From: a virus
Reading direction: 5' to 3' (one strand)
Virus record (IMG/VR): IMGVR_UViG_3300038435_000224
Span: 1-42,538 of that record
DNA length: 42,538 nucleotides
The translations under genes were made by a program, and so were the position numbers. This document shows, piece by piece, positions 772 through 42,538 of this stretch (its first letter is position 1; the number at the start of each line of letters is the position of its first letter). The notes beneath the pieces were generated by a model that saw only the letters and a list, made by a program, of their open reading frames with translations, was not told the origin of the DNA and did no database searches.

Positions 772-1677
772 ATGTCACATGCATTTCAATTAACATGGGA
801 TAGCATTGCTGCAACCAATCGTGATCTAACTATTGACGAGTTGTTTGCTCATTATTATCAGTACGCTAGAGCGCAATGCCGTACTCACAAAAATATTGCT
901 GCAAACTATCGACGGTACTTTGGACCTGTGGGTAACATGCTTGCTCGAGATTTATCGGCACAACATGTTATGCATTGGCACAGTGAGATAGGTAAACGTT
1001 TTGGAAAGGTAACAGCTAATCATTGTCTTCGACTTCTGAGAACCATCTATAACTATGGTATTCGTTTCAATTTATATGACGGTAAAAATCCTGCGACTGT
1101 TATTAGACAATTTCCAGAAAAATCTAGAGAGCGTTTCGTCACTCGAGAAGAAATGCCAAAGTTTTTAGAAACTATGGAAAAGCTACCGGCGAGAAGTCGT
1201 GATTTTTTCTTTATTCTATTGTTTACTGGCGCTCGTTCAGGTGATGTTCTATCGATGAGATGGGAAGATATAAACATTACCGAAAAAGTATGGATTATCC
1301 GCGATAGTAAAAACGGTGATGATTTACATATTCCACTAGATGCACGCGTACTAGCTGCACTTGCTAGATGTAGAAGATATAGTCGTAATGGCTGGGTGTT
1401 TCCTTCAAAGAAAACAGTTGGACATATGTGGCTACCGCGTCGTGATTGGAATATTTTGAGAAAAGGATTTCCGGACTTGCGAGCTCACGATTTAAGGCGA
1501 ACACTAGCTACATGGCAATTAAATACTGGAACTAAATTGGAAGTGGTAGGGAAAACATTAGGGCATAGATCTATCAAATCAACTGAAATTTACGCACGTA
1601 TGCAGGTAGCACCTGTACGCAAAGCAGTAGATACAGCACTATCTGCTATGTTTGATTCAACCTCTATAGACTTTTGA
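772..1677 (+). CDS. int: Tyrosine-family integrase (phage site-specific recombinase)
   Basis: The 301-residue product has the full catalytic set of the tyrosine recombinase family: Arg155 in TGARSGDVL, Lys180, His239 and Arg242 in HDLRR, His265 in GHRS and the nucleophile Tyr274 in STEIYAR. Residues about 20-105 form the SAM-like core-binding domain and the catalytic domain runs from about 120 to the end. The start is set by GAGGTG five nt before ATG. It lies next to the tRNA-like junction at 511-595, the expected position for an enzyme that recombines phage attP with a tRNA attB. Its 3' end overlaps the convergent gene ending at 1657 by 21 bp, so the two transcripts would be antisense to each other there. 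Length and motifs are normal for a prophage integrase. Confidence 0.96.
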   Translation: MSHAFQLTWDSIAATNRDLTIDELFAHYYQYARAQCRTHKNIAANYRRYFGPVGNMLARDLSAQHVMHWHSEIGKRFGKVTANHCLRLLRTIYNYGIRFNLYDGKNPATVIRQFPEKSRERFVTREEMPKFLETMEKLPARSRDFFFILLFTGARSGDVLSMRWEDINITEKVWIIRDSKNGDDLHIPLDARVLAALARCRRYSRNGWVFPSKKTVGHMWLPRRDWNILRKGFPDLRAHDLRRTLATWQLNTGTKLEVVGKTLGHRSIKSTEIYARMQVAPVRKAVDTALSAMFDSTSIDF

Positions 1678-2964
1678 CCAAAATGGCAGAGGTCCAAAAT
1701 CTGTTTCGACAAATTTGATACGATGACGATTGAATCCAGGCACATTTAGTGATTTAGCACCACGATTATGTGAGAATGCGTGCAATACTTGTTGTCCATG
1801 ACGCCGTGCAAAGTTCGTCACATGTTGATCAACACGTGCTTTGATATAGTAACCTATTCCACGATTTCTAAGATCCCAGCGAATATTCATACCACCAATA
1901 TGACCGCTTCCTCCAATTTCATATCTTTCTCCAACCCCTCTATCATCAGGAGCAACAGTTACAGTACCTACGATTTCGCCCGTGCTTCTATCCTTATATA
2001 TAAATGTTTGATAGAGTTCGCTGCTTTTAAACCTATTGTCCTTGTGATGCTCTTGTATCCAAGTTAAAAAACCAGGAATAATTTCTCCATTGACCTCACG
2101 ATCTAATCCATATTCACCATCACGCTTAGGCTCCATACCAGCAATCCACTTTTCAAACTGTGCTTTTGTTTGTGCGTCGCAAGCAGCATAGGTCAATTCT
2201 TCAAACAAATGTTTTGCTTGAATGACTCTGCCAGCAATTACAGCAGGATTATCAATATTATCAAAATTTCTCCATTCGATTAGTCTGTCTTTAGTAGAGG
2301 AGCGTTCTGGATATTGCAGCTGTTCAAATACATATACATTGTCAGAATCTGCAATGACAGGAGATGGAGTCATGGTATAAAGAGACGGGTAGTCAATCCA
2401 ATAATCATCATCGGTGCTAAGAATTAGCTTATCGCCAGAGGTAATATCATCTTTTGCGATAATTACTAGTGCCAATCCTCTTAATTGTTCAGCATCTTTG
2501 ATTTCTTTACCATTCAAAAAAATCTTTATGTATTTAGGGGAAAGAAAATCCTCCATTAAAGAAATGCCTATAGGACCATTGCGTCTCATTCCAGAATTAC
2601 TTCTATATATAAGTCTTCTTAGGTATGCATTTCCATCGGTGTCCTGTCCAAACATATCGAATAACCAATCAGGTTGTTTACTCAATGCATAATCTAGTGA
2701 AGATGCAAGACTCCCTTTCCCTCCTTCTAACAGTGGAAGATAAGTATCTATTTGTGCAAGATAACGAGATAGTGCAGTTAGAAATACAACAGATAGTGCT
2801 TTAACTCCTGGTGTCCATTGAAAAGTACCAACTTTCCCATAGGCACCGATTGTCTTTCCGCGCATCGCATACATTTCTTTTCCGTCGTCACGACTAAAGA
2901 TAGTTCGTTCAAGCTCAACTTCGTGTGACCAAGATTTAGAGAACCAGAGAACTAATTCTGTCAT
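1657..2964 (-). CDS. Large uncharacterised protein with C-terminal GNAT acetyltransferase domain
   Basis: 435 residues. The last ~120 residues look like a GNAT N-acetyltransferase: the strand TGEIVGTVTVAPDD, then an acetyl-CoA loop-like RNRGIGYYIKARV (R-x-x-G-x-G), then a C-terminal strand HRIKFVETDFGPLPFW. The first ~300 residues match no family I can name. The segment with GKGSLASSLDYAL and the acidic STDDDYWIDYP stretch are its visible landmarks. It is the last gene of a three-gene leftward operon. Its ATG overlaps the stop of the phosphatase gene (TGATG) and AAGGTGAG is the likely ribosome binding site; an in-frame TTG one codon earlier is also possible. It ends inside the 3' end of int on the other strand. 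Inference: it acetylates a product made by the two upstream enzymes. The substrate is unknown. Confidence 0.75.
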   Translation of the reverse strand: MTELVLWFSKSWSHEVELERTIFSRDDGKEMYAMRGKTIGAYGKVGTFQWTPGVKALSVVFLTALSRYLAQIDTYLPLLEGGKGSLASSLDYALSKQPDWLFDMFGQDTDGNAYLRRLIYRSNSGMRRNGPIGISLMEDFLSPKYIKIFLNGKEIKDAEQLRGLALVIIAKDDITSGDKLILSTDDDYWIDYPSLYTMTPSPVIADSDNVYVFEQLQYPERSSTKDRLIEWRNFDNIDNPAVIAGRVIQAKHLFEELTYAACDAQTKAQFEKWIAGMEPKRDGEYGLDREVNGEIIPGFLTWIQEHHKDNRFKSSELYQTFIYKDRSTGEIVGTVTVAPDDRGVGERYEIGGSGHIGGMNIRWDLRNRGIGYYIKARVDQHVTNFARRHGQQVLHAFSHNRGAKSLNVPGFNRHRIKFVETDFGPLPFWSKVYRG

Positions 2965-3623
2965 CAACTCACCTTAATAAACAGTCTGTCAATAATTGTT
3001 TCCAATTGATCAAACGAATCAATAAATGCAAACGGTTTGAGTTGTTCAAGTTTTTCTTTCGAATGAGAACCAAAAGTCACACAGATAGTTTTCACTTTAG
3101 CGTTGGTTCCAAAATTTACGTCGCTAGTTGTATCACCAACCATGATGCATTCATCAGAAGAAAAGCATAGTGTTTTCATAATGTGTCGCAACATTGTTGG
3201 ATCAGGTTTTTCTTTATATTCTGCACCACAACAAGTGATGTCAAAAATTCCTTCGAGCTTGTTATGAGTAATTGCGCTATCAAGTTCTTTGCGACTTTTA
3301 GATGTAGCAATAGCTAATTTGTAGTTTCGTGCTTTTAGAGCTCGAAGCATTTCAACAGAGCCGGGAAACATTTCACCTTGATATTCTTTCAACTGCATTG
3401 TTTCGCGAAATTCGTTACACAAGTTGTCCAGCATTTCTGAAGACACAGAAGGAAAACAAATTTTCATTGCTTCTTTGAATTCCATGCCAAGCACATGTCG
3501 TACTTGTTCTTCAGTAGGTTTATCTACTTCATACTTTTCTGCGAGGTAGTGCTTGCATGCAATTATCTTACTGACTGAGTCAGCTAGTGTACCGTCCCAG
3601 TCAAACACGACAAGCTGTGGCAT
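2964..3623 (-). CDS. HAD-superfamily phosphatase (phosphoglycolate phosphatase-like)
   Basis: 219 residues with all four HAD motifs: DWDGTLADS with nucleophile Asp8 and acid Asp10, motif II Ser/Thr in IATSKSR, the Lys in KEKPDP and the acidic motif MVGDTTSDV. A helical cap domain of about 70 residues follows motif I, the subclass I arrangement of Gph/PGMB-type enzymes that dephosphorylate small phosphometabolites. AAAGGAG lies 5 nt before ATG. The start overlaps the end of the upstream amidohydrolase gene by 23 bp, and its stop overlaps the start of the GNAT gene, so the three are probably translated together. Given the partner, a sugar phosphate is a likely substrate, but HAD sequence alone does not reveal specificity. 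Confidence 0.88.
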   Translation of the reverse strand: MPQLVVFDWDGTLADSVSKIIACKHYLAEKYEVDKPTEEQVRHVLGMEFKEAMKICFPSVSSEMLDNLCNEFRETMQLKEYQGEMFPGSVEMLRALKARNYKLAIATSKSRKELDSAITHNKLEGIFDITCCGAEYKEKPDPTMLRHIMKTLCFSSDECIMVGDTTSDVNFGTNAKVKTICVTFGSHSKEKLEQLKPFAFIDSFDQLETIIDRLFIKVS

Positions 3624-4695
3624 GTGAACTCCTTTTGATTCTTTTAGTTAATACACTTCTTGGGATAACGTTTGTTATGGCTTCTACTTCGACAGTATTC
3701 AAACCAATTGAAAACATGTTTTTTATTTGTTGTTCAACATTAGTAGTGCCAGCGGCAACTATACCCTTGTCTTGATATAACAGGTTGGAACCATCTTTCA
3801 TTACTAAATCTTGACCACCAAGTCGTTTGCTTTCAACTGTATCAGTCATCATCATCATATTCTCTGCACCGACTAATCGCACAGCATGTTGGACAATTTC
3901 TAAATCAACATGTTCTCCATCAAAATTCTGACAAAGCTTGGTAATACCTTTACGTGCATTCCTAATCATAGTGGCAGGTACTGGACCTAGATCTTGTTCG
4001 ATTGAATTTATATTCCAGCTTGATGGATTTACTATTTCTAGATCTGCTTTCCGCTTCGCCTTTTCACCTGGGGTTCGCCAAGCATGTTTAAAGTTCAACG
4101 GCATATCATTGAATAGATGATCAGTAACAGTTACATGTCCTGATTCTTCAACTGCATCAAATATAGACTGCAATGCTCTTGCACTTGCCATCGGATTTGT
4201 TTTAGTAAAGTGTCCCGGTGCTGGTAAAACATTTCCATCCAACAATATTTCAGATATTTGTCGCACACTAAGACCATTTGTTTGAGCTGCATCAGGCGAC
4301 ATAATAACGTAGATCAAACCATTCTTGCCGCAATGGGCTAGGTCATTCCACTGCTGTTTGTCAGGCATCCATATAGAGCTTCCTGGTGTACCACCATAAC
4401 TATCCAGTAATGGACCTTCCAATGCAAAGCCTTCTATATGTGTGAGTTTGCCCTGCTCTTTTAGTCGATGAAATATTTCAGTGAGATTCAAAAACCCTTC
4501 AAAGTATTTTCTTGGCAAATAAAGTGTAAGCACACAGTTGTGCCCTCGTTCAGCCAATACATCATCTATTGTCTGTAATTCCAGCTCAGGGATTTCAGTA
4601 AAATCAAAGCGACTAACTCCATGACAATGCATGTCAATTGCATTCCTTGCGAGACTATTCAGATTCATATTTGGTGACACCACGTGTAAATGCAC
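3601..4695 (-). CDS. NagA-like amidohydrolase (N-acetylglucosamine-6-phosphate deacetylase family)
   Basis: 364 residues of the amidohydrolase TIM-barrel fold. Visible metal and catalytic positions are His23-x-His25 (DMHCHG), Glu93 (FALEGPLL), His162 (PAPGHFTKTN), His193 in TDHLFNDMP and Asp285 in MMMTDTVES. The HLFN-x-M signature and the ALEGP strand are typical of NagA, which removes acetyl from GlcNAc-6-phosphate. Unlike cellular NagA it begins almost directly at the HxH strand, so the N-terminal part of the usual beta-sandwich is missing; the C-terminus is also short. The start is a GTG only a few nt after AGGAGGGT, tighter than usual, so a downstream GTG cannot be excluded. It is the first gene of the cargo operon. 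Substrate identity is inferred from the family only. Confidence 0.82.
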   Translation of the reverse strand: MHLHVVSPNMNLNSLARNAIDMHCHGVSRFDFTEIPELELQTIDDVLAERGHNCVLTLYLPRKYFEGFLNLTEIFHRLKEQGKLTHIEGFALEGPLLDSYGGTPGSSIWMPDKQQWNDLAHCGKNGLIYVIMSPDAAQTNGLSVRQISEILLDGNVLPAPGHFTKTNPMASARALQSIFDAVEESGHVTVTDHLFNDMPLNFKHAWRTPGEKAKRKADLEIVNPSSWNINSIEQDLGPVPATMIRNARKGITKLCQNFDGEHVDLEIVQHAVRLVGAENMMMMTDTVESKRLGGQDLVMKDGSNLLYQDKGIVAAGTTNVEQQIKNMFSIGLNTVEVEAITNVIPRSVLTKRIKRSSHATACRV

Positions 4696-4855
4696 ACCCT
4701 CCTACAGCTTGTAATGCTGTCTGAGCAGTGTTTTTGAGATAACGGGTTTGATTGTATTACAAATCTACATAAACTCTAAAACTTCTAATGTTAAGTCTGA
4801 TAATTGCGGATTGTTGGTTGACAACTGGCGAACCGATATCGTTTGTTGTATGATT

Positions 4856-4890
4856 CAAAAAAGGAAGAGACCCGCTCTAACGAGTCCCTT
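4856..4890 (-). terminator. Strong rho-independent terminator (leftward)
   Basis: On the minus strand AAGGGACTCG (4890-4881) and CGGGTCTCTT (4874-4865) form a 10-bp stem with two G-U pairs and a 6-nt loop. CCTTTTTT follows. It lies just after the small gene at 4908-5048 and upstream of the cargo operon, so it separates the two leftward units. Confidence 0.75.
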
Positions 4891-4907
4891 CTGTTTGAAG
4901 CCCTCAC

Positions 4908-5048
4908 TTATCGCTTACTAGGCTTAGGAGTGGGCTTCTTTTTTTGTCCACCCACAATGGGGTGCACTTGTGGACATTTGGGGCTTTTATGATTGTGCTT
5001 TGGTCCGCACATATAAAATCCATCTGCCACTTTTGAAGTGTTGGACAT
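4908..5048 (-). CDS. 46-aa Cys/His-rich basic peptide
   Basis: A 47-codon frame with a textbook GGAGG 8 nt before ATG at 5048. The product starts MSNTSKVADGFYMCG and contains a Cys/His cluster (CGPKHNHKSPKCPQVH) that could bind one zinc ion or another metal. It ends in a Lys/Pro-rich basic tail (KKKPTPKPSKR), suggesting contact with nucleic acid or membrane. A longer overlapping frame in another phase has no ribosome binding site and is rejected. The leftward terminator at 4856-4890 follows 18 bp after the stop. A second, long-loop hairpin followed by seven T on the plus strand (4897-4945) overlaps its 3' end. It belongs to a short unit driven from the promoter at 5197-5225. I do not recognise the family. 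Confidence 0.65.
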   Translation of the reverse strand: MSNTSKVADGFYMCGPKHNHKSPKCPQVHPIVGGQKKKPTPKPSKR

Positions 5049-5077
5049 GCCATACACCTCCAATCAGCGACATGATT

Positions 5078-5096
5078 TGTTGATAGTAAATCAACA
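5078..5096 (-). other. Perfect 7-bp hairpin between two tiny genes
   Basis: TGTTGAT (5078-5084) and ATCAACA (5090-5096) form a perfect stem around a 5-nt loop, about 30-50 nt upstream of the 46-aa gene start. No T-run follows on either strand, so this looks more like a processing or translation-control structure than a terminator. Confidence 0.35.
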
Positions 5097-5127
5097 GGTC
5101 GCAAGACTGTGCCATTGCTGATGCAAG

Positions 5128-5190
5128 TTAGCCTCTGGCAAAAACTTTTATTCGGTTTTTTCCACCGCCACCACTATGATCTTCTGACAT
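5128..5190 (-). CDS. Candidate 20-aa peptide, possibly from a leaderless mRNA
   Basis: The frame starts at ATG 5190 and encodes MSEDHSGGGGKNRIKVFARG before TAA. The -10 box of the promoter at 5197-5225 ends 7 nt before this ATG, so transcription would begin at or next to the A of ATG. That is the leaderless arrangement known for lambda cI made from PRM. The Gly4 run and the basic C-terminus are the only visible features. It precedes the 46-aa gene in the same unit. It may be a real micropeptide, a regulatory leader ORF, or chance. Confidence 0.35.
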   Translation of the reverse strand: MSEDHSGGGGKNRIKVFARG

Positions 5191-5196
5191 AGTCCC

Positions 5197-5225
5197 TATA
5201 TACTAACATGACTTTTTAAATTCAA
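5197..5225 (-). promoter_or_regulatory. Sigma-70-type promoter for the leftward tiny-gene unit
   Basis: On the minus strand TTGAAT (5225-5220), an exact 17-nt spacer and TATATA (5202-5197) make a good promoter. The predicted transcription start falls on or beside the ATG at 5190. The 5233-5253 hairpin abuts its upstream edge. Confidence 0.55.
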
Positions 5226-5232
5226 ACGAAAA

Positions 5233-5253
5233 TACCCACCAAAAAGATGGGTA
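5233..5253 (-). terminator. Hairpin with T-rich tail, leftward terminator or operator
   Basis: On the minus strand TACCCATC, loop TTTTT and GGTGGGTA form an 8-bp stem with one G-U pair, followed by TTTTCGTTT. It would block transcripts entering from the right and so insulate the promoter at 5197-5225. As a DNA dyad 8 bp from the -35 box it could also be an operator. Confidence 0.5.
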
Positions 5254-5437
5254 CTTCGCACTATGTCCACTATCAAGTGGCGGATTAAAATGTGTCTGGT
5301 CTTTGACCGTTAGCAAAATAGATGCCGAATCGATATCAACCAAACTGGAAGTAAGTTTACTCGCTTTGAATTCCGAGGTCAATTATTTTGTACAGGAATT
5401 TGACAGGTAATAATACATATATTCAGTTATTTGGATA

Positions 5438-5468
5438 GAAAAAATAGAATACCCCCTTCTATTTTTTC
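5438..5468. other. Perfect 12-bp stem-loop
   Basis: GAAAAAATAGAA (5438-5449) and TTCTATTTTTTC (5457-5468) are perfectly complementary around a C-rich 7-nt loop (TACCCCC). On either strand the 3' arm ends in a T-rich run, so it could act as a weak bidirectional terminator. A structural DNA element is the other option. Confidence 0.45.
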
Positions 5469-5711
5469 CGGAGCAATTTGTCAACTGTTCAAAAACCCGT
5501 GTAGTTTTTTACAGGTTTTGTTTTAGCCGATATATATATCAGTACTACTATTTAGTAACAGATATTCCAAATCGCACAAATTTAATCTGGATACTTTTCT
5601 GTAAAACTTCCCAGATTTTTCTTTTTGTTCAAATTCAAACAACAGAAAATATCAAAATATTTTTTTGAATTTCCTGTTTTTATTTCGTGCGTTTTTTCTG
5701 TCGATTTATAT

Positions 5712-6041
5712 AACAATAGTATTGCTTGTTGTCTGCTGGATATATTTTGTGAAGCGTGTGAAGGATCGCGTTTTTAATCCTTCACGCGGAAACCCTTGTG
5801 CCATCTACCTTTGACATCTACTGTGAAGCTGTGAAGCTTTTTTCCCTATTAATTACTAGAGAAAATTACTGAATAAAAATAGAGCAAATATACACAATCA
5901 ATAAACACAATTTGAGAGTAATTAAATAGGGGAAATCCTTCACAGCTTCACAGATTTTTGAAACGCTTGCGGCACAAGCGAAAGCGCGTGAAGCATCTAT
6001 TTTTCAATCCTTCACAGGTAAATGACAACTTAATTATTGTT
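5712..6041. repeat. Long imperfect inverted repeat with GTGAAGG/CCTTCAC dyads
   Basis: The core arms 5821-5857 and 5917-5953 start with 16 perfectly complementary bases (CTGTGAAGCTGTGAAG) and stay largely complementary over 37 nt. Outside the core the arms remain recognisably related: GTGAAGGAT at 5758 and 6015-6007, GCTTCACGCG/CGCGTGAAGC near 5785 and 5985, CTTGTGCC/GGCACAAG near 5800 and 5975, and AACAATA at 5712 and 6041. Local hairpins also exist: 5758-5785, 5964-5980 (CGCTTG-CAAGCG) and 5988-6015. About nine copies of GTGAAG/CTTCAC occur in 270 bp. It lies 60 bp upstream of the HNH/terminase genes. Candidates are a replication or packaging site with protein-binding dyads, a structured RNA, or an inserted MITE-like element. 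Confidence 0.7.
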
Positions 6042-6099
6042 TTTCAAAAAAGTTCTGGTAAAATGCAGCCGCCCTAATTAGAGCCAGGGAGAAACTGTC

Positions 6100-6465
6100 A
6101 TGCCAATGAAGCCAGCTAAACCATGCAACAAACGTGGATGTGGCCGTCTTACTTTAGATAGATTCTGCGCATCACATGATGTTGAATACAAACAACAGAC
6201 GCGAATTGAATATGACAAAAAGCGTGGAGCTGATAAGCAACGATATACCAACAAGCTGTGGCGTGCTAAAAGAAAAAATCAATTACTAAATGAGCCATGG
6301 TGCAAAGAATGCAATTGCTTAGCGAATGAAGTCGATCACATCATTCCACTTGTTGAAGGTGGAGCTGATGATGAAAGCAACTTCCAATCTTTGTGCAAAT
6401 CATGCCACTCACGCAAGACAGCACGAGAGAATGGCGGCTTTGGCAACGAGAGGAAGAGAGCATGA
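6100..6465 (+). CDS. HNH endonuclease (terminase-associated)
   Basis: 121 residues. An N-terminal [18 protein letters not shown] cluster precedes the HNH fold: CKEC (about 71-74), then [32 protein letters not shown]. That gives the DH of the nuclease motif, the central Asn and the final CxxCH zinc ligands. Small HNH proteins encoded beside P27-type small terminases are needed for cos cleavage together with the terminase (shown for HK97 gp74), and this gene is directly upstream of the terminase pair. The start ATG follows AGGGAGA by about 6 nt. It is the first gene of the rightward late operon. Confidence 0.92.
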
Positions 6466-29348: not shown

Positions 29349-29996
29349 TTAAATAAGTGTCTTCATCCCATCTTTAAACCAATCCCCGGGTTTATAAAAT
29401 TTACCTTTATCATCCTGCATCTCATGGGGAAATTGACATTCAGCAAGTACACCCTCCCTTATTTTCTTATAGAAACTTGCTTCCTTATTCATACGAGTTG
29501 CTGGGTGTCCGTCTCTTTGCGGATCTAATATGCCTATTGTTTTTTTGAAACGAGTTTTTATCATCAGGAGAGGTGCGTAAAAATCAGTATCGCCGGAAAT
29601 TAAAACGGCAGTCTCAAAGTGACGACAATGGGCATCCCATAGTAACATAGAGGTTAAATTAACATCCGACCTTTTTTCTTTTGTTTTCACCACTTCCACA
29701 AACCCACTGCCGTCGGCTTTTGGGAGCTCCACATTCTCTACAATAAACTTTCCTTCTATTATCTCCAAGTTTGGTATTGTTTTTAGCGCTCTAATATATT
29801 TAAGTTGTCTTTGTGGTTTATCTGGATCATCTGGCGTACCACTTACTTGAGCAGTGAAGTAATATATTTTTTCGATACGATTTTGTGGCAATAAAAACTC
29901 ACACAACTTTTGTAAATTAAGCCATTTAAAATCAGTGCCTTTCAAACAACCGTAGTAGAGGTTAAATCCATCTACATAGACGTAAGTTTTTGTCAT
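29349..29996 (-). CDS. NYN-domain (LabA/DUF88-type) putative RNase
   Basis: 215 residues from ATG 29996; a 24-codon upstream extension runs through a perfect hairpin and is considered leader. NYN/PIN-like acidic residues are visible: Asp9 in YVYVDGFNLYYG, Asp111 in KRSDVNL, Asp121, and Asp136/Asp138 in VLISGDTDFYAPL. These coordinate metal in NYN ribonucleases. The C-terminus has an extra KGKFYKPGDWFKDG segment. It is leftward and separated from the early operon by a 328-bp control region with dyads, so it is probably expressed independently, as accessory (moron) genes are. Role could be RNA turnover, defence or host takeover; not determinable here. Confidence 0.85.
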   Translation of the reverse strand: MTKTYVYVDGFNLYYGCLKGTDFKWLNLQKLCEFLLPQNRIEKIYYFTAQVSGTPDDPDKPQRQLKYIRALKTIPNLEIIEGKFIVENVELPKADGSGFVEVVKTKEKRSDVNLTSMLLWDAHCRHFETAVLISGDTDFYAPLLMIKTRFKKTIGILDPQRDGHPATRMNKEASFYKKIREGVLAECQFPHEMQDDKGKFYKPGDWFKDGMKTLI

Positions 29997-30015
29997 ACCA
30001 CCGTCCAATAAAGCA

Positions 30016-30035
30016 GAGGCTCCTTTCGGAGCCTC
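30016..30035 (-). promoter_or_regulatory. Perfect GAAA-tetraloop hairpin in the NYN leader
   Basis: GAGGCTCC-GAAA-GGAGCCTC on the minus strand: eight perfect GC-rich pairs closed by a stable GNRA loop, about 20 nt upstream of the NYN start codon. TGCTTTATT follows, so it resembles an attenuator or terminator without a full T-run. It may control readthrough or translation of the NYN gene. Confidence 0.6.
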
Positions 30036-30113
30036 GCGCCCCAGACCGTAGTCATGGGGATGTTTCATTATTCAATATAGCATATCTATCTGTATGTATA
30101 GTGTTATATAAAC

Positions 30114-30324: not shown

Positions 30325-32007
30325 TTATGCAGCCACTGTTTCTTTTTGAACAATTTGGGCTACGGCTCCATCCAACCAATACGTAATCCCTAGACCATGC
30401 TCTGCCAGATTTGGCACTTTATGCATTGAATCAGCAGTCATTGTTAACAGTGTAGCCATATCGATATTTGATAGTAGTGTGAACAATCCATTTCTATTTT
30501 CGCCGTCCAGAATATCTGCCGCGTCGACTATAACTACCTGAGAATCGTCGAGCTTGGCTAGACCAATTTGCAAAATAACCCTTGTTCTGAATTTCTCTGA
30601 CTCTGATATCTGACTATAACCAGCTTGTCCATAGGTAATTTTCAAATCAGGCTCAATCCTAACTTCTGGCCAGTCCGCGAGCCTTGATAGCGGAATTAGG
30701 TACTTACTATTGAATTGTTCTACTGCTGACTCTAGTTTCCTTTGACGTAATCCCGTTGGAGCAAGACAGTCTATAACGCGCTGGTTGCTAATTACGTTCT
30801 CATGTAATTTATCAGCCTCAAGCTTTTGTTTTAACGCTTCGATTCTAAGTTCAGCGGTGCGAACAATACCTCTTTGTTTTTCGATCTGTTTTTCTAGTCC
30901 TACCTTGTCTTGCGTCACATTCTTCGCATCATACTTTTTCATTTCCTCGAGAGCTTTTTTGCACTCGATATAAATCTGATTAGAAAAGATTGCCATTTCT
31001 GACAAGCTCTTGAGTTTAGCAACTGCTGTTTCAATCTCTTGCTTCTTAGCATTGATAGTTTCTAGTCTATGAGCTATCTCAGCATCAGATATTTCGTGTG
31101 GTTTTTCTAATTTTCCACCAAACACTACTATTGGTTTTTTACAATGGGGACATGGTGTTGTTTGCTGTTTCTTTTCAGGCTGTGGAAGATTATTCAACTC
31201 GTTGCAGAGTTTTTTGTATTCTTCTTGCGCTTCTTTCTCTTTTTCTTGCGCCTCCTTGAGCTCAGTCTGTGCCAAATCAAAACCAAGTGCTTTCTCCTGA
31301 GTGACAGAGTATTCATGCTCATCAACTGCTTGCATCTTCAATAGACTCTCGAGAGTATCCCGCTCGGTTGCAAGAGCAGCAGTCAGAGTTTCTTGACTAG
31401 TACCCATCAAATTATTTTCCCAATTTTTTGGTAACCACTTGCCACCTTTATCGCTACCATAAGTTTCACCAGCGACTTGACGCCAACGTGACTTATACTC
31501 TTTTCCTTTTTCAACAGAGTAATCATATGTTCTGTCCCAGCCCTTACCCTGTATATATTTCCAAATTTCCTCAATCTCGGTAATAGGATGACCTTTGAGC
31601 GATTTCTCAAGATCATCAAATGTTGGCTCACCTTTAAGAAGTTTCAAAAGCGTAGAACTTCTAGTTTTATCATCTAGATCTACCAAAGATTTTATGCCTG
31701 CTGCAAATTCTGATATATGTAGTGGTTCGCCGTCGGTTATCAACTTACACTCAGGATAAGTCAGTCTGACTGAGCCATGGTCTGTTTTTAATTCCACTTG
31801 TGCATTTGCTGAGCCGCGTTTAACCAACACACCTGCTTGGTTTTTCAATATTCCTTCAATAGGGATTGCTGATCGGGATAGAATCGCTCCGACTGCTTGA
31901 GCGATGCTGCTCTTGCCACTGTTGTTTATACCGGCAATCAAAGTAATAGCATTCAAGGGAATATCAGCTTTTTCAATCCCTTTAAAATTCCTGATTGTAA
32001 TTTCCAT
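30325..32007 (-). CDS. SMC/Rad50-like AAA ATPase with zinc-hook motif
   Basis: 560 residues. Walker A GINNSGKS (26-33) follows the typical N-terminal MEITIRNFKGIE. A coiled coil of about residues 205-400 is interrupted by CPHC (285-288) like the Rad50/SbcC zinc hook. The C-terminal half has an ABC-type signature SESEKFR (467-473) and Walker B VVIVDAAD (490-497), where the usual Glu after Asp is Ala. It is shorter than SbcC (about 1000 residues). GGGAG lies 8 nt before ATG. Encoded at the end of the early operon with an annealing-type protein and a Cas4/RecB-like nuclease, it is probably part of a phage recombination system. The substituted Walker B Glu may slow or alter hydrolysis. Confidence 0.88.
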   Translation of the reverse strand: MEITIRNFKGIEKADIPLNAITLIAGINNSGKSSIAQAVGAILSRSAIPIEGILKNQAGVLVKRGSANAQVELKTDHGSVRLTYPECKLITDGEPLHISEFAAGIKSLVDLDDKTRSSTLLKLLKGEPTFDDLEKSLKGHPITEIEEIWKYIQGKGWDRTYDYSVEKGKEYKSRWRQVAGETYGSDKGGKWLPKNWENNLMGTSQETLTAALATERDTLESLLKMQAVDEHEYSVTQEKALGFDLAQTELKEAQEKEKEAQEEYKKLCNELNNLPQPEKKQQTTPCPHCKKPIVVFGGKLEKPHEISDAEIAHRLETINAKKQEIETAVAKLKSLSEMAIFSNQIYIECKKALEEMKKYDAKNVTQDKVGLEKQIEKQRGIVRTAELRIEALKQKLEADKLHENVISNQRVIDCLAPTGLRQRKLESAVEQFNSKYLIPLSRLADWPEVRIEPDLKITYGQAGYSQISESEKFRTRVILQIGLAKLDDSQVVIVDAADILDGENRNGLFTLLSNIDMATLLTMTADSMHKVPNLAEHGLGITYWLDGAVAQIVQKETVAA

Positions 32008-42083: not shown

Positions 42084-42538
42084 TGTGCCACTCCTTTAAG
42101 TACTAATGCTCGGTCTAACTTCTTTTCAAACTCATCGATCCATTGCACTGCCAAGGCAACTGCCTGCGAATTCTCCGGTGTATCTCCCGGTTTGATTGCA
42201 AGGAAAAATCTTTCAGCAGGACGAGAGGATTGAGGCTGTAAGCCTTCGATATTTCCATAATTACAATTTCTTATGTTTGCTATTGTGCCAACTAGGCATG
42301 CGCAAGCACCTTCGTAGCACGAACCGTCAACTCTTCCTTCAACGAGAGCTAAACGTAACCCAGATATCTCACCAGGGCACGTGAGCAAAATAGATTCAAA
42401 GTCCTGCTGTATAGGACTCAGGTCTGCGCCACTCAGGTATGCGCCACTCAGGTCTGCGCCACTCAGGTCTGCGCTTCTCAGGTCTGCGCCACTCAGGTCT
42501 GCGCCACTCAGGTCTGCGCCACTCAGGTCTGCGCCACT
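42080..42538 (-). CDS. Pentapeptide-repeat protein (truncated by window edge)
   Basis: The frame is open to the window end. Visible are about eight pentapeptide repeats of the type SGADL (with variants RSADL and SGAYL), then a distinct C-terminal domain (DFESILLTCPGEISGLRLAL, EGACACLVGTIANIRNCNYG, RPAERFFLAIKPGDTPENSQ). I recall that domain from phage pentapeptide proteins. The Met at 42388 is internal, not the start. Pentapeptide repeats form a right-handed beta helix; some members mimic DNA and bind gyrase. The true N-terminus and repeat number lie outside. The stop overlaps the next GTG. Confidence 0.85.
   Translation of the reverse strand, partial: SGADLSGADLSGADLSGADLRSADLSGADLSGAYLSGADLSPIQQDFESILLTCPGEISGLRLALVEGRVDGSCYEGACACLVGTIANIRNCNYGNIEGLQPQSSRPAERFFLAIKPGDTPENSQAVALAVQWIDEFEKKLDRALVLKGVAQ
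42416..42538. repeat. 15-bp tandem repeat encoding pentapeptides
   Basis: About eight head-to-tail copies of a 15-bp unit (GCGCCACTCAGGTCT on the plus strand), nearly identical, running into the window edge. Each unit equals five codons of the pentapeptide gene. The near-identity at DNA level suggests recent expansion and a copy number that may vary between isolates or be misassembled. Confidence 0.9.

Follow-up and report, generated by a model that had tools for sequence, protein, structure and literature searches.

This prophage carries, next to its integrase gene int, a three-gene unit that we read, with a probability of about 0.45, as lysogenic-conversion cargo (a 'moron') derived from a chromosomal amino-sugar module, which would release an amino sugar from its N-acylated, phosphorylated form. 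The window, i.e. the whole stretch of DNA that was analysed, corresponds to the 42,538-base virus record IMG/VR IMGVR_UViG_3300038435_000224. The computed evidence comprises the homology of the first gene product to NagA with a complete active site, the missing sandwich domain, the pairing of its gene with that of a HAD phosphatase, and the gammaproteobacterial origin of the gene. The features discussed are as follows.

511–584 (−): tRNA-Lys(CTT)-like sequence (RF00005, 27.5 bits against a cut-off of 29)
772–1,677 (+): int, tyrosine integrase (PHROG 1, 181 bits), convergent with P0001
1,657–2,967 (−): P0001, 436 aa, GNAT signature at the C-terminus, third gene of the unit
2,964–3,623 (−): P0002, HAD-IA phosphatase, 219 aa, second gene
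3,601–4,695 (−): P0003, predicted barrel-only NagA-type amidohydrolase, 364 aa, first gene
4,751–4,780 (−): promoter-like site TTTAGA-18-TACAAT, a weak consensus match about 55 nt upstream of P0003
4,864–4,891 (−): terminator-like hairpin upstream of P0003, 12 pairs followed by a T run

The sequence-only reading had described three overlapping leftward genes beside int, and all of these open reading frames are present, with the position next to int borne out by the coordinates and the PHROG matches. P0003 and P0002 overlap by 23 nt, P0002 and P0001 by 1–4 nt, and the 3' end of P0001 overlaps the convergent int by 21 nt. The P0001 frame opens with TTG followed by ATG as residue 2 (base 2,964), and this ATG is the likelier start. 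Int, the large terminase, the portal and the major head protein were recognised by their PHROGs and confirm the record as a tailed prophage, whose integrase relatives share only 35–41% identity and whose TerL relatives are remote. The tRNA-like sequence adjoining int has an intact 3' half and a degenerate 5' half, and was not called as a tRNA by ARAGORN; it marks an att site, preserved as a relic at the prophage edge. On the strength of int, the other phage genes and this relic, the cargo is placed inside the prophage, with int on one side and the packaging genes on the other. A separate island made up of int and the cargo, lying beside the phage, is less likely: the ORF lists of this contig, which lacks the right prophage end, showed no further integrase. 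The gene at 1–300 had no match in seven genomes.

The tight overlaps, the adjoining int and the upstream hairpin all favour the layout of a moron, that is, non-phage genes that have their own promoter and terminator and are dispensable for the virion and for replication. Location and content fit this description; the hairpin and the promoter-like site are predictions. The hairpin would insulate the unit from leftward transcription further upstream. Promoter-like sites in this region were fewer than in shuffled sequence, with no enrichment over chance, and the site at 4,751–4,780 (−) is only suggestive as a promoter of the unit.

A 1.4-kb AT-rich gap without convincing genes (4,696–6,100) separates the cargo from the HNH and terminase genes, and contains a 37-nt imperfect inverted repeat with arms at 5,821–5,857 and 5,917–5,953. 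At the other end of the window (42,387–42,538) a 15-nt tandem repeat is present in seven copies, and its minus strand reads (GADLS)n. This encodes a pentapeptide-repeat protein within which the contig ends, so the record lacks the right prophage boundary together with the second att site.

No Pfam match was obtained for P0003, and its family has no Pfam model. Its score against the nagA model TIGR00221 was 21.3 bits (cut-off 225.65), which does not place it in that family. In the PDB, a profile of 33 relatives matched NagA structures and nothing else (E 1.8e-5 to 1.9e-3), and an AlphaFold2 model built from 29 sequences (mean pLDDT 91.2) had as its best 26 PDB folds NagA or the human counterpart AMDHD2 in every case. 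HH alignment of the family with canonical NagA, from a Bacillus and a cyanobacterium, gave a probability of 98–99%, with HxH, the E of LEGP, GH, HL(F/Y)N, DGxH and TD in register. H23, H25, E93, H162, H193, N196, D197, R207, R215, H262 and D285 are invariant among the 33 relatives, and the modelled TIM barrel of P0003 comes with the full catalytic and metal-binding set HxH, E, H, H, H and D. The protein resembles NagA without being one.

The earlier suggestion of a NagA-like enzyme thus stands on both profile and structure matches. The sandwich portion, which had been thought missing from the N-terminus, is absent from both ends: the first HxH histidine comes after just 22 residues (about 60 in the Bacilli members), and in the model nothing folded follows the last helix, the C-terminus being a disordered tail. 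The model of P0003 is accordingly a TIM barrel alone, lacking the beta-sandwich domain of NagA. The HH alignment also shows about 35 extra residues after NDMP, at the site of the HHREPG loop of canonical NagA. An arginine of that loop binds phosphate in the canonical enzyme, and because it is replaced here, and the match to NagA is remote, the substrate of P0003 may differ.

P0002 matched PF13419 over its full length (139.9 bits, cut-off 23.8) and has all four HAD motifs (D8WDGT, T107S, K139 and GD164TTSD168), so the proposed HAD phosphatase is upheld. Its best NCBIfam equivalog reached 110 bits against a cut-off of 225, by which no named substrate is assigned, and a HAD-IA sequence of this kind does not predict its substrate. 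The closest relatives are phosphatases paired with NagA-like genes (36–47% identity).

For P0001, the GNAT call was partly sustained. A match to Pfam Acetyltransf_1 covers residues 315–404 and is sub-threshold, with 16.7 bits for the whole protein and 18.5 bits for the C-terminal part alone (cut-off 20.7). Residues 367–372 (RNRGIG) correspond to the acyl-CoA-binding motif Q/RxxGxG/A, a short motif that is weak evidence by itself. The N-terminal 300 or so residues belong to no recognised family, as had been noted; fragments searched against Pfam and the PDB returned nothing usable, and a single-sequence fold was uninformative (pLDDT 32.8). Full-length relatives of P0001 were absent from plasmids, phage records and IMG/VR, from overlapping samples at class level (369 genomes) and phylum level (398 genomes), from the order sample, and from the genomes and records behind the NagA-like loci, an absence that applies to the samples searched and not to nature. 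The sole match in the plasmid and genome searches spanned 61 residues of the GNAT part (7e-4).

The P0003 family was found at about 53 genomic and plasmid loci, of which 49 came from a one-genome-per-species scan, four from plasmids (one of these being a genome locus) and one more from a class-level sample. At the sensitivity used no relatives were found in phage records or IMG/VR contigs, a search from which the window's own record was possibly left out, and the P0002-type HAD alignment had no match in IMG/VR. In the tree P0003 groups with sequences from Legionellales, from Piscirickettsia and from a single other gammaproteobacterial genome (support 100/99), next to cyanobacteria. From this position, the prophage gene most likely derives from this gammaproteobacterial lineage. 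No publication on this family, or on phages with NagA-HAD cargo, came up in the literature searches.

In six gammaproteobacterial genomes (L005, L006, L007, L008, L051 and L071/L074) a P0002 homologue lies directly downstream of the P0003 relative or overlaps it, although it is truncated in L005 and a remnant in L051. The latter locus (L051, 7,971–8,676), in a Legionellales MAG, is decaying, as its NagA-like gene also has an internal deletion. In Piscirickettsia and L074 the pair is followed by a RhaT-like transporter and then by a convergent HTH/NagK-like protein, which is also present in L005; in L008 an MFS transporter follows the pair. The HTH/NagK-like proteins of Piscirickettsia, L074 and L005 share 41–49% identity, and the best NCBIfam match for the HTH/NagK-like protein beside the pair is NagK_SO3507 (58 and 53 bits). 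As two independent families, NagA-like and NagK-like, meet in this locus, an N-acetylated amino sugar is indicated, and the amino-sugar phosphate chemistry put forward in the sequence-only reading gains support from the NagK-like regulator and the RhaT-like transporter.

Across the wider family, a P0002-type HAD-IA gene was present in the fetched flanks of 26 of 52 loci and in none of 20 control segments of 17 kb, a small control from two genomes, with a HAD profile built partly from these neighbours and with many of the 26 loci being close Streptomyces relatives and so representing fewer independent events. Bacilli loci have a Cof-type HAD instead. The NagA-like/HAD pair is thus a conserved module that has been moved by a phage. 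Within what was searched the trio is no such module: of three genes expected to stay together, the first two do so in gammaproteobacteria and the third has no full-length relative in the genomes and phages searched. The sequence-only reading had named separate occurrence of the genes in relatives as evidence against it, and this is half the case.

The actinobacterial loci resemble biosynthetic clusters, with class III/IV aminotransferases, PurN-like formyltransferases, NDK-like proteins, nucleotidyltransferases, GHMP kinases and SIS domains. Two arrangements were observed among the NagA-like loci. In one (L010, 9,743–13,082; also L014 and L029) an NDK-like protein, a class III aminotransferase and a PurN-like formyltransferase lie beside the NagA-like gene; this set recurs in Actinobacteria and a cyanobacterium, with the PurN-like gene not in every locus, and is apparently an undescribed type of biosynthetic cluster. 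In the second (L036, 7,998–14,878; also L042) the neighbours are a nucleotidyltransferase, a GT4 glycosyltransferase and a class IV aminotransferase, with a SIS isomerase and a GHMP kinase additionally present in L036.

For the prophage unit, we infer a substrate, an order of steps, a GNAT activity and a benefit to the lysogen as follows. Using the metal-dependent mechanism of NagA, P0003 would most likely strip the N-acyl group, probably an acetyl, off an amino-sugar phosphate resembling GlcNAc-6-phosphate, and P0002 would then take off the phosphate, so that the pair most likely yields a free amino sugar. P0001 would probably transfer an acyl group from acyl-CoA to the freed amine or to another acceptor. 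Deacylation is placed before dephosphorylation because canonical NagA acts on a phosphorylated sugar, which is extended here to P0003. In the actinobacterial clusters N-formyl may take the place of N-acetyl, as PurN-like genes adjoin. The three-step pathway as a whole is a guess.

If the pair served GlcNAc-type catabolism, the cargo would be for scavenging nutrients, with P0003 as the missing deacetylase and the HAD in overflow or salvage. In each of the seven genomes examined from cyanobacteria, Bacilli and Actinobacteria, a canonical NagA above the cut-off occurs as well, and in most lineages the NagA-like gene therefore probably does not serve as the GlcNAc-6-P deacetylase. The five gammaproteobacterial genomes examined (G001–G004 and G308) had no canonical NagA above the cut-off, and there the NagA-like gene could be that enzyme; this second point is weakened by the fact that the MAGs may be incomplete. 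The transporter and NagK-like regulator that adjoin the pair on chromosomes would also suit scavenging. The prophage, however, carries no transporter and no kinase or regulator, and a phosphatase acting after NagA would discard the phosphate needed for glycolysis, which leaves this explanation doubtful. Given this coexistence and the biosynthetic or other loci in which the NagA-like gene lies, GlcNAc-6-P may not be its substrate in Actinobacteria, Bacilli and cyanobacteria. A bolder proposal, which we think improbable, is that the family comprises new barrel-only NagA-type deacylases, usually partnered by a phosphatase, whose substrate is some phosphorylated intermediate distinct from GlcNAc-6-phosphate; the prophage version, with P0001, would then perform a three-step amino-sugar acyl exchange that alters the metabolites or surface of the lysogen, a lysogenic-conversion chemistry not described before.

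Altered acylation of an LPS or peptidoglycan amino sugar could instead change the phage receptor and exclude superinfection. The amino-sugar chemistry and acyltransferase signature are compatible with this, as is the position beside int, which is typical for lysogenic conversion genes, but the unit includes no glycosyltransferase, flippase or membrane protein and has no relative in the phage collections searched, and we consider such envelope modification unlikely. Somewhat less likely again is the synthesis of a modified amino sugar that serves as a signal or an antibiotic, which the actinobacterial relatives may perform next to aminotransferases, PurN-like formyltransferases, NDK-like proteins, nucleotidyltransferases, ATP-grasp enzymes and exporters. 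The prophage has three genes only and no exporter, and its P0003 belongs to the gammaproteobacterial clade, where the neighbours are sugar-uptake-like. The suggestion of an undescribed defence system, or an anti-defence system, fared worst and is very improbable. Prophage defence genes are often located beside int, and P0001 is of no recognised family; however, PADLOC returned nothing for the unit except a generic HAD hydrolase model (21 bits), the unit was found in no other phage searched, and the neighbourhoods read around P0003 relatives were sugar or biosynthetic loci with no defence island.

Two other genes of the window resemble those of defence systems. The protein encoded at 29,349–30,068 (−) matches PHROG 7929 (225 bits, function not assigned) and the PADLOC candidate model HEC-09 (130 bits), and looks like an NYN-type nuclease domain. 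An AAA/OLD-like ATPase at 30,325–32,007 (−) has weak matches to several defence ATPases (best 38 bits) and is probably a phage recombination-type protein.

The analysis exposes a widespread NagA-type family with no characterised member found here, an unrecognised branch of the NagA family. Its genes repeatedly adjoin those of HAD phosphatases in Gammaproteobacteria, Actinobacteria, cyanobacteria and Bacillus, and biosynthetic genes are present in many of these loci too; the prophage is an instance in which the deacetylase-phosphatase pair travels as cargo. The greater interest lies in the barrel-only family, which is also frequent in biosynthetic clusters of Actinobacteria; a single enzyme activity would annotate it and give a testable function for many unassigned biosynthetic clusters.

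Compared with known systems, P0003 shares with NagA/AMDHD2 (TIGR00221; PDB 1ymy, 2vhl, 6fv3, 9up6 and 7nut) the TIM-barrel fold (TM-score about 0.6–0.68) and the aligned active-site positions HxH, LEGP, GH, HL(F/Y)N, DGxH and TD, but it has only 14–20% identity, no sandwich domain at either terminus and the insertion after NDMP. P0002 has the four motifs common to the HAD-IA phosphatases (Gph, PpaX and sugar phosphatases; PF13419), yet falls under every NCBIfam equivalog cut-off. P0001 has the RxxGxG motif and a weak C-terminal match in common with the GNAT acetyltransferases (PF00583), from which it differs by its long N-terminal extension and a score under the gathering threshold. The unit can further be compared with the NagA-like/HAD/RhaT-like/HTH-NagK-like locus of Piscirickettsia and related gammaproteobacteria, which is described in this analysis: its first two genes, their order and their close or overlapping junction are those of the prophage (49–52% identity for the NagA-like protein and 42–47% for the HAD), whereas the transporter and regulator are replaced in the prophage by P0001.
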